Shown here one piece after another: positions 45,509 through 47,950 of a DNA stretch of 64,000 nucleotides. Each line of letters opens with the position of its first letter. The stretch's first letter is position 1. Below the pieces are notes generated by a model that made no database searches, had not been told where the DNA came from, and saw only the letters and a program-made list of their open reading frames with translations. Both the position numbers and the translations under genes were made by a program. Source of the stretch: Alteromonas sp. CI.11.F.A3 (GTDB taxonomy: Bacteria; Pseudomonadota; Gammaproteobacteria; Enterobacterales; Alteromonadaceae); the NCBI RefSeq assembly GCF_032925565.1, contig NZ_CP136708.1:3410001-3474000 (forward strand), written 5' to 3'.

Positions 45509-46882
45509 CTAAGTAGCATGTTGTTCCTGTTTAAATACCGAGAGCGAATTTTTGAATACGACAAAAGACACGGTTGCCATGGCAATATTTGCCACTACCG
45601 TTCCCCAATACAATCCGGTTAAACCGAAAATGTAGCTTCCCGCAATACTTATTGGCACAAAAAATACAAACAATCTGATAACACTCAAAGCCAATGCACT
45701 CAAGGGGCGGTGCATCGCATTTAACGAAGAATTCGTTAAAATAATAATACCCTGCATGCCATAACCTAAAGGCACTATCATCAAAAACAATTGAATGAGG
45801 CGGCTAACCTCGGGTTCACTGGTAAAGGCTACGGCAATCCAGCCAGAACACACCCACATAACAACAAATACGAATAACTGCCAAAAAAGCACAAATTTTA
45901 ACGACACCATATAAGCGCTATGCACTCTGTCGAATCTATTTGCACCAACGTTTTGGCTAATAAAGGGTGGCAATGTCATAGAAAGTGCAAGTACCACAAT
46001 ACTGGCAATAGACTCCATTCTGCTGCCTACTCCCCACGCCGCCACAGCTTCAGCACCATAACCGGCCACCACCGCGGTCATTACACCACCGGCTATTGGC
46101 GTAAGCATATTAGCCCCAGCGGCTGGCAGGCCTATTTTTAATATATCCCCGCTAATTGCTTTTAGCTCTAGTAATGAAAGTAACCGAGGCAGAATTAGAT
46201 TTCGTTTAAGCGCCAACAAATAAAGTATCCACGCAGCGCCCACCATCCACGCTAATAGCGTAGCCAGCGCAGCGCCTTGAATGCCCATTGCGGGAACCGG
46301 ACCTGCACCAAAAATAAACAAAGGGTCGAGCAGTGCATTTAAACCACCTACGGTTGCCATGACAATACTTGGGGTTCGGGTATCGCCACAGGCTCTTAGT
46401 ACACTGTTACCCACCATTGGTAGCGACAGAAAAATACTCGATGCGTACCATAAGGCCATATAGTCCCTTATATAAGGTAATAAGCTTGGCGAGGCATTCA
46501 GCAATGTAAATATAGGTTCAATGGTGAAGTAACCAATTAACGCCAACGTACCCACCAATAAGGCAGAAAGCATTAGTGAACCAGTCGCGTAATTCTTTGA
46601 CTCGCTCAATTCGCCACTGCCTTGCAGTTTGCCAATAATAGCCGACGTGCCAATGCCTAACCCAATATTCAAACTAATAACGGTAAAGGTGACGGGAAAG
46701 GTAAAACTAATGGCAGCCAAAGGTTCTGTACCTAATAAACTGACAAAGAAGGTATCGATTAACCCGAAGCTCATCATCATGACCATGCCCAGTATCATAG
46801 GTATTGTCATGCGTTTTAGGGTAGAAGGAATATCACCGTTTAAAAGATTCGCGGTTCGGCTCGGGGACTCGTCTGTTTTCAC
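45509..46882 (-). CDS. MATE-family multidrug/Na+ antiporter
   Basis: 457 residues with about 12 membrane helices. Typical MATE sequence features are seen, such as FGLIDTFFVSLLGTEPLAA (about 29-47) and later GAALATLLAW. The GTG at 46882 is preferred because GAGAGG lies five bases upstream, while the outermost TTG at 46894 has no Shine-Dalgarno. The family exports drugs or metabolites against Na+ or H+. It lies upstream of uvrB in the same orientation, perhaps co-transcribed. Substrate is unknown. Confidence 0.92.
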   Translation of the reverse strand: MKTDESPSRTANLLNGDIPSTLKRMTIPMILGMVMMMSFGLIDTFFVSLLGTEPLAAISFTFPVTFTVISLNIGLGIGTSAIIGKLQGSGELSESKNYATGSLMLSALLVGTLALIGYFTIEPIFTLLNASPSLLPYIRDYMALWYASSIFLSLPMVGNSVLRACGDTRTPSIVMATVGGLNALLDPLFIFGAGPVPAMGIQGAALATLLAWMVGAAWILYLLALKRNLILPRLLSLLELKAISGDILKIGLPAAGANMLTPIAGGVMTAVVAGYGAEAVAAWGVGSRMESIASIVVLALSMTLPPFISQNVGANRFDRVHSAYMVSLKFVLFWQLFVFVVMWVCSGWIAVAFTSEPEVSRLIQLFLMIVPLGYGMQGIIILTNSSLNAMHRPLSALALSVIRLFVFFVPISIAGSYIFGLTGLYWGTVVANIAMATVSFVVFKNSLSVFKQEQHAT

Positions 46883-47921
46883 AAACCCTCTCAATAGTTG
46901 ATTGGTAGAAATAACTGGCGCTAATAAATAAGTGGCTATCGTAAATAACTAAACTTGCCTTACAACAAGAAGCTGACAGTAGTCTATGTGAGACTGACCA
47001 CATTGGCTATGTTAAATCGACCAAGCTAAGTTTGGGCTAGATCAGGTGCCGGTTTTCACACCAGCGCATTGTTAAAATTAATACTATTGACTAATTTACA
47101 CGTTTTAACGTGAACATTGGCGAAGATGTCACTGACAACGCTTTTTTAATAGCTAACGCTTGAAGGCTTATCAACTTAGTTTATGAAATAAGCCAATTTA
47201 GTGTAATGACAATTTCATTACGGCTAGATTGCGCTTTTAAGACAGTCTATCGGTCGATTACACCTAAGTTGCCGTAGAAGCTACACCACACAAAATGTAA
47301 AATTTATGTAAACCTTTCATTTCTTACTGTTATATCGTTGAAAAAGTAACTGATAGTCGACGAATTAACACACAAGATATTTTTTGTCCAACAGATCTAT
47401 TAAGATCTTAACTAGAGATCTAGCATAAACAAGTAAATCATTGATATAATTCTGTTTTTAGTAAAAACAGGTTAGTGGAGCTTACGATCATGACCACGAT
47501 GATCTTACCAATTTATCCTCAAGTTAATAACTATCAACATAGTTATCCACAGAATTAGTGGATAAGTAGCTCTACCCCAGCAATTACGCCCTATGCTGGG
47601 TAACCCCTTCCTAATTATGTAAGTGAAGACTAACCTTGAGATACTAAGCCGTAGGTTACATATTTATTAAACACTGTACACAATACCAGTATACAAAACA
47701 TTTTTTATTCTATTTTATTATATAGGTTTCGTATTTTGCTACTCCAAAAAACGAGTCGCTGTTCGTTAATATTCACTCCTTCGATAATACAGTTAAATAC
47801 GGCGATACGAATACTCGCTCAGTAATTAAGCATCACTTTCTTGGTTTTGGTGCAAATTTGAGCACAAAACCCCTGAAAAGCTATTTTTTGACCACTTAGC
47901 ATAAAAAATTGATTAAGGTTG
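46883..47921. other. One-kilobase gene-free region with palindromes and an origin-like element
   Basis: No convincing ORF in either strand over about 1 kb, unusual in this gene-dense window. Notable inverted repeats are CACGTT-TT-AACGTG at 47099-47112 and GTAATGA/TCATTAC at 47203-47221. CTGTTTTTA/TAAAAACAG lies at 47452-47470, and CCCAGCA/TGCTGGG at 47576-47600. The central part, described separately, has clustered GATC and DnaA-box-like sites. The right end, 47640-47740, is very AT-rich. Confidence 0.75.
47394..47565. other. oriC-like element: GATCT-initiated AT-rich repeats plus DnaA-box-like sites
   Basis: Three GATCT-initiated AT-rich units start at 47394, 47404 and 47417, resembling the AT-rich 13-mers (GATCTNTTNTTTT) of gammaproteobacterial oriC. 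Two more GATC sites lie at 47486 and 47501, forming GATCAT-N7-ATGATC. DnaA-box-like 9-mers are TTATCCTCA (47513-47521), the consensus TTATCCACA (47543-47551), and inverted TTATCCACT (47557-47565). Five GATC sites occur in 111 bases, against about one in 256 expected. Neither dnaA nor mnmG/mioC is in the window, so this may be the true origin, a DnaA-titrating or reactivating site, or chance. Confidence 0.5.
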
Positions 47922-47950
47922 TTGACAGAAACCCAGATGCTCTTTAATAT
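47922..47950 (+). promoter_or_regulatory. Strong sigma-70 promoter of the tRNA-Asn genes
   Basis: A consensus -35 TTGACA (47922-47927), a 17-base spacer and -10 TAATAT (47945-47950) are followed by a GC-rich discriminator (CCGCCCC). That discriminator is a hallmark of stringently controlled stable-RNA promoters. The first tRNA begins 22 bases after the -10. Confidence 0.88.

Follow-up and report, generated by a model that had tools for sequence, protein, structure and literature searches.

A probable uvrB-linked DARS1 of Alteromonas sp. with an IHF-type site, a distal DnaA-type box, a GATC array and a LexA-type box at conserved offsets

DARS1 is a DNA site thought to recharge DnaA, the replication-starter protein; a DARS promotes the release of ADP from DnaA and thereby regenerates ATP-DnaA. 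The paper that defined these sites is said to be that of Fujimitsu in 2009. In the papers cited here, work on DARS function concerns E. coli, and a DARS is defined by three DnaA boxes, spaced equally in DARS1 and DARS2, with box I oriented opposite to boxes II and III (PMC5742627). E. coli DARS1 is described as short and, in sources that include PMC4245941, as having no requirement for IHF (PMC5742627, PMC4245941). The E. coli sites are placed between oriC and terC (PMC5742627), and the conservation of DARS positions in related bacteria has already been published (PMC5742627, PMC4585315). The core of E. coli DARS1, which lies in the bioD-uvrB gap (NC_000913.3, 813107-813141), consists of TAATACACA, TGG, TTATCCACA, GGAAT and AGTGGATAA, and that of DARS2, in the rppH-mutH gap, consists of TTCTTCACA, ACT, CTATCCACA, GAAAA and GGTGAATAA.

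The window analysed here is a stretch of 64 kb (positions 3410001-3474000) of the genome of Alteromonas sp. CI.11.F.A3, which is present as 1 contig of 4,662,912 bases. Between the genes for a MATE protein and tRNA-Asn, it was found to contain DnaA box III (CTATCAACA, 47531..47539, + strand), 3 bp, box II (TTATCCACA, 47543..47551, + strand), 5 bp and the inverted box I (TTATCCACT, 47557..47565, − strand), which stands head to head with box II. The order, orientation and spacing of this core are those of both E. coli DARS1 and DARS2. All offsets given below are counted from the start of box II, which is genome position 3457543. In a search of the whole genome allowing up to two mismatches, the exact core was present at just two places, the window site and 3074419; base composition predicts 0.02 occurrences of the two-box core in 4.66 Mb, and two mismatch-free occurrences were found.

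A sequence-only reading of this DNA had reported a consensus DnaA box at 47543, one-mismatch boxes at 47513 (TTATCCTCA) and, inverted, at 47557-47565 (TTATCCACT), five GATC sites in 111 bases and two palindromes, and had offered three interpretations: a displaced origin, an additional origin-like site, or a regulatory site of the datA/DARS kind that binds DnaA. All of these boxes are present, and the feature list was correct as far as it went, but it lacked box III, the IHF-type site, the distal DnaA-type box and the LexA-type box described below. The palindromes at 47452-47470 and 47486-47504 also exist, but the former survives in just 1 of the 30 genus loci and was rejected as a part of the element, and the inverted repeat at 47486 is conserved in the genus only at its GATC ends. 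The box at 47513 was not counted as a part because it is kept in only 2/30 genus loci. On the other side of the core, a conserved pair of inverted halves is found at 47628..47660: GACTAACC is present at +85 in 26/28 genus loci, and at +111 all 28 carry GGTTACA or one of its near variants (loci L013 and L014 left out of both counts).

We next consider how the element is conserved and where it lies. BLAST of 47300-47660 gave matches in 41 of 60 genomes (own genome included), with all 36 genomes of the genus, again including the own genome, among them. The genus alignment comprised 30 loci, the own one and those of 29 relatives; six genomes of the genus contributed none. Across these loci the core was nearly invariant, box III being kept in 29/30. 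A MATE homologue was on the left in 30/30; on the right were tRNA-Asn in 27/30 and RnfA in 26/30, with two loci ending before tRNA-Asn/RnfA (L022, L034), one having RnfA without tRNA-Asn (L025) and two having tRNA-Asn without an RnfA match (L015, L026). Within-genus offsets are in part inherited and weigh most where the intervening sequence has diverged.

In the wider order, the pattern TTATNCACA-N6-GTGNATAA was found in 91 of 150 genomes, whereas the reversed pattern gave one match. Linkage was tested in 80 of the 91 pattern-bearing genomes (7 + 4 left out), in 79 of which uvrB was found at the cut-off. In 72 of these 79 genomes, representing 14 families, the uvrB start is preceded by the core at a distance of 233-2063 bp, and the linked cores share one orientation (72/72). 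The ACA of box III was invariant in 70/70 non-genus loci, though it was absent from the search pattern. In the genome of the window the core is 2063 bp upstream of uvrB, with the MATE gene now between the two. Therefore, given a linkage to uvrB in 72/79 genomes and always in one orientation, the window element appears to be the orthologue of DARS1. The seven genomes without an exact uvrB-linked core belong to family f2 (five), f8 (one) and f26 (one), and in at least one of them (G036) the strict pattern missed a near-match core located about 0.4 kb upstream of uvrB. These counts come from sequence throughout, and the loci are unevenly spread over families whose members are not independent.

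Like E. coli DARS1, the window element has boxes I-III with 5- and 3-bp spacers in the same orientation, lies upstream of uvrB and has box III towards uvrB. It is also between oriC and the terminus, at 0.60 of the left replichore. The two differ in that the window element has five GATCs and a MATE gene before uvrB, and in the place of the LexA-type box, which in E. coli is at -322, on the uvrB side, and in the window at +129. Taken together, core geometry and uvrB linkage make it very probable that 47531-47565 and its flanks are the uvrB-linked DARS1 of this Alteromonas strain, which bears out the DARS part of the regulator option in the sequence-only reading.

The DARS2 place was also evaluated. 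Cores linked to mutH were found in 18/80 genomes (f2, f9, f11 and f21). In the own genome, mutH is at 4151399, and no core was found nearby at up to two mismatches. The second exact core of the own genome (3074419-3074441; L046/L048) is linked to neither uvrB nor mutH and is directly before a small ORF that is ACT-domain-like in appearance. When 21 loci of this second core were aligned, boxes at -84 (TTATCCACT) and -113 proved to be conserved, and an IHF-like TCAn5TTA was present. Both cores were placed in 8 closed genomes, where they share a replichore at a distance of 314-383 kb; in E. coli, each replichore carries one of DARS1 and DARS2 (PMC4585315). When genomes outside the order were searched, 32/58 (own included) had the pattern, nearly all of the matches being symmetric pairs that can be read on either strand, and these were not used because they are symmetric, unlike the asymmetric DARS core. 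Symmetric pairs TTATCCACA-N5-TGTGGATAA recur in families f2 and f21 as well as in genomes outside the order.

An IHF-type site, TAAATCATTGATA (47434..47446, + strand), is present at offset -109 and is an exact match to TAAnnnnTTGATW, the consensus given in PMC4245941. Among the 70 non-genus uvrB-linked loci, 37 (11/14 families) have a site with no more than one mismatch at -116..-101, and 56 have one with at most two mismatches. In comparison, 17 control intervals gave 0-2/70, and a Markov null had a mean of 1.0 and a maximum of 5 in 200 runs. The site is weaker in the genus itself, where 13/30 loci have it with at most one mismatch and 27/30 with at most two. Further out, a distal DnaA-type box, TAACACACA (47366..47374, + strand), lies at -177. 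Within -212..-175, an interval picked after viewing the position histogram, 60/70 non-genus loci (12/14 families) have a same-strand DnaA-type box, relative to a null mean of 5.4 and maximum of 11. In the genus, this box reads TAACRCACA and is at -177/-178 in 29/30 loci and at -188 in one. E. coli DARS1 itself has TTATCCCCA at -209 and, at -111, a two-mismatch IHF-like sequence, TAACCAGTTAAAA, as compared to the exact site at -109 in the window.

E. coli DARS2 shares the core geometry of the window element and has its IHF sites in the flank next to box III (PMC4245941), and one-mismatch IHF-type sites were found there at -99 and -83; an IHF-type site was also present at -105 to -108 in 4 of 9 fetched mutH-linked loci. 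DARS2 differs from the window element in being linked to mutH instead of uvrB and in using Fis: the sole exact match to the Fis consensus in 47150-47800 is at 47179-47193, and none is near the core or beside the IHF-type site. From the position and recurrence of the IHF-type site, it is likely that IHF has a role at the window DARS1.

The five GATC sites are all present, at 47394, 47404, 47417, 47486 and 47501, and 47394-47504 is the densest 111-base stretch of the window, which has a mean of 0.17 GATC per 111 bases. They form two groups (47394..47420, offsets -149, -139 and -126; 47486..47504, offsets -57 and -42) that flank the IHF-type site on both sides. The conservation of GATC spacing, a check that the sequence-only reading had proposed, was borne out in the genus: all five offsets are identical in 18/30 loci. 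Five GATCs were found in 23/30 loci, four in three, three in one, two in one and none in two, whereas the remainder of the genus loci has a mean of 0.14 per 120 bp. Because 2/30 loci lack the array and another two have it reduced to two or three sites, it cannot be indispensable in every locus.

The GATC letters are kept in 64-100% of 28 loci (L013/L014 left out), whereas 37 of 40 neighbouring positions are kept in 29-57%. A conserved GATC with variable flanks therefore fits Dam/SeqA better than it does a longer protein site. SeqA needs closely spaced GATCs; here the spacings within groups are 10, 13 and 15 bp, and dnaA, seqA and dam are all in the own genome. We regard SeqA gating of the window DARS1, as suggested by these spacings and flanks, as having about an even chance of being correct. 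Outside the genus, the array region has no GATC in 55/70 loci, one in 13, two in one and five in one. The last (L167; genome G159, family f21), a locus far from the genus, has a uvrB-linked core with its five GATCs falling within -155..-35, a possible parallel case. On a MATE protein tree, the label of at least four GATCs requires four changes, relative to a mean of 7.3 in shuffled labels, 3/500 of which were as low; four changes would allow an early gain of the array followed by a few losses.

A LexA-type box, CACTGTACACAATACCAGTA (CTG-N10-CAG, 47672..47691), is located at +129 and is the sole CTGN10CAG of the window with at least 12/20 consensus letters. Such a box is at exactly +129 in 30/30 genus loci and in one locus of another genus (L124). 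In a named set of 28 loci, which probably shares species with the first genus set, the core was found in 26, and all 26 have the LexA-type box, 23 at +129 and three (Paraglaciecola) at +130. In four loci of the same family (L102-L105), no LexA-type box was found at +60 to +260. At the box, a rightward -10 (+136) was seen in 16/28 loci and a leftward one (+137) in 12/28, the box being near-palindromic. To judge from its fixed place, the window box is probably bound by LexA.

The same GATC-rich, AT-rich DNA, with DnaA boxes in a gene-free gap, could be read as a second or relocated replication origin, and the window element does resemble an oriC under Dam/SeqA sequestration in having a GATC cluster round an IHF-type site and DnaA boxes. 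However, a canonical oriC region is found at 149.6-150.2 kb of the own genome, with 20 GATCs and nine DnaA-type boxes (at most one mismatch), directly before an mnmG-like ORF that starts at 150295 (gene name read from the ORF). To the left of this oriC gap are a mioC-like ORF, likewise named from its reading, and then two ORFs, the second of which weakly matches the DnaA family; the position of dnaA is 141.5 kb. The GC skew of twenty sampled 20-kb stretches was negative at 100 kb, zero or positive at 333-2450 kb and negative at 2663-4547 kb, and these switches bracket the oriC region and dif (2536909). The skew is thus negative on both sides of the window site, which is 1.36 Mb from oriC, between oriC and dif, and away from mnmG/mioC. 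The sequence-only reading had proposed a skew calculation and the location of dnaA/mnmG as checks, and both agree with an origin at about 0.15 Mb, in the switch interval with the mnmG-like ORF. It had also listed three GATCT-initiated AT-rich units and noted that gammaproteobacterial oriC has GATCT 13-mers; the flanks of the GATCs vary in the genus, and the units are not conserved as 13-mers of that type. Among the things named there as counting against the element, the outcome is mixed: the skew switch and an oriC are indeed elsewhere, but conservation between MATE and tRNA-Asn is strong instead of absent. With box layout following DARS geometry, an origin at the window site, whether second or relocated, is extremely improbable; the sequence observation was right and the oriC reading is not supported.

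Two other readings keep DnaA binding and assign it a different role. A site that acts like datA in promoting hydrolysis of DnaA-ATP, or one that simply titrates DnaA, would also combine DnaA boxes with an IHF-type site, as datA does (PMC5742627), but boxes I and II are head to head at DARS spacing, the core is linked to uvrB, and datA is near oriC (PMC10380432) whereas the window core is at 0.60 of the replichore; this reading is not favoured and we consider it very unlikely. Somewhat less unlikely, yet still improbable, is that the cluster controls only the transcription of uvrB or MATE-uvrB, with DnaA and LexA as repressors and no DnaA reactivation. In E. coli, DARS1 DnaA boxes and LexA boxes are both upstream of uvrB, DARS1 is overlapped by the promoter uvrBp3 and by a LexA box, and both DnaA and LexA act as repressors of uvrB (PMC6015884). 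In the window, a gap of 28 bp separates MATE from uvrB, which is on the same strand, and the LexA-type box is the only strong CTGN10CAG. The genus differs from E. coli in having this box beyond the core, at +129, with the core about 2 kb from uvrB. The geometry is kept at distances of 1.67-2.06 kb from uvrB (f1, f15, f16 and f20), at which a promoter role is less direct, and the own genome has a second exact core without uvrB linkage. Furthermore, both roles can coexist, as in E. coli.

For the preferred reading, a uvrB-linked DARS1, we propose a model of an IHF-looped site that is possibly gated by Dam/SeqA and LexA. By analogy to E. coli, boxes I-III, of which I and II face each other, would be the place where ADP-DnaA assembles. 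At a distance of about 84 bp from box III, bound IHF would bend the DNA and so bring DnaA from the distal box back onto the core, which it would activate, a loop that is modelled on the action of IHF with Fis at E. coli DARS2. Passage of the replication fork at about 0.60 of the replichore would leave both GATC groups hemimethylated, and SeqA on these sites might then bar IHF and DnaA until Dam restores methylation. Reviews state that at oriC DnaA is blocked by SeqA, which could also interfere with IHF (PMC8488378, PMC10380432). LexA at +129 would link the element to DNA damage, and an SOS transcript, if directed leftward to MATE/uvrB, would cross the whole element. According to PMC10950094, IHF is removed from datA by transcription, and the means by which it leaves DARS2 as the cell cycle proceeds is unclear.

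A broader version of the model is that DARS1 was ancestrally looped and IHF-dependent, that E. coli DARS1 is a reduced form, and that Alteromonas has turned it into a cell-cycle and damage switch. In such a switch, SeqA on the five phased GATCs would silence DARS1 once the fork has passed, and DnaA reactivation after damage would be altered by LexA or by SOS transcription that begins next to DARS1 and runs through it. We put this version forward tentatively, with the chances somewhat against it. If the IHF-type site and distal box seen across the order do work, then DARS1, DARS2, datA and oriC would share an IHF-bend plan to which E. coli DARS1 would be the exception, and the Alteromonas GATC array would tie fork passage (Dam/SeqA) directly to DnaA reactivation in a DARS.

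The literature examined comprised the available portions of PMC4245941, PMC5742627, PMC4585315, PMC12371093, PMC8407004, PMC10380432, PMC8682772, PMC6015884, PMC10950094 and PMC8488378. Within these portions, neither an IHF site or distal box for DARS1 nor a GATC array in a DARS is described. As judged against these sources, the order-wide IHF-type site near -110 and the distal box on DARS1 look new, as do, at the genus level, the fixed positions of the GATC array and the LexA-type box on DARS1.

The remainder of the region was also searched. The gene-free gap described in the sequence-only reading was confirmed in that no ORF of at least 50 aa lies wholly inside the interval from the MATE start (46894) to tRNA-Asn (47972); a 56-aa ORF (46833-47003) overlaps its left edge. 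The directions of uvrB, MATE, tRNA-Asn and rnf are likewise as stated there. Within the MATE/tRNA-Asn gap there were no Rfam matches, no terminator-like sites were found, and promoter-like sites were not in excess (5 vs. 4.4 in shuffles). In a plasmid search, the matches (best 20 of 64 records) fell on the tRNA-Asn part of the query. A promoter-like TTGACA-17-TAATAT at 47922-47950, ahead of tRNA-Asn, is conserved in the genus, and tRNA-Asn genes (1-5) adjoin DARS1 in several families (L094-L122 and the genus loci). A TGTtAa-n5-TGTaa repeat at about 47296-47311, roughly 245 bp to the left of box II, is also conserved in the genus.
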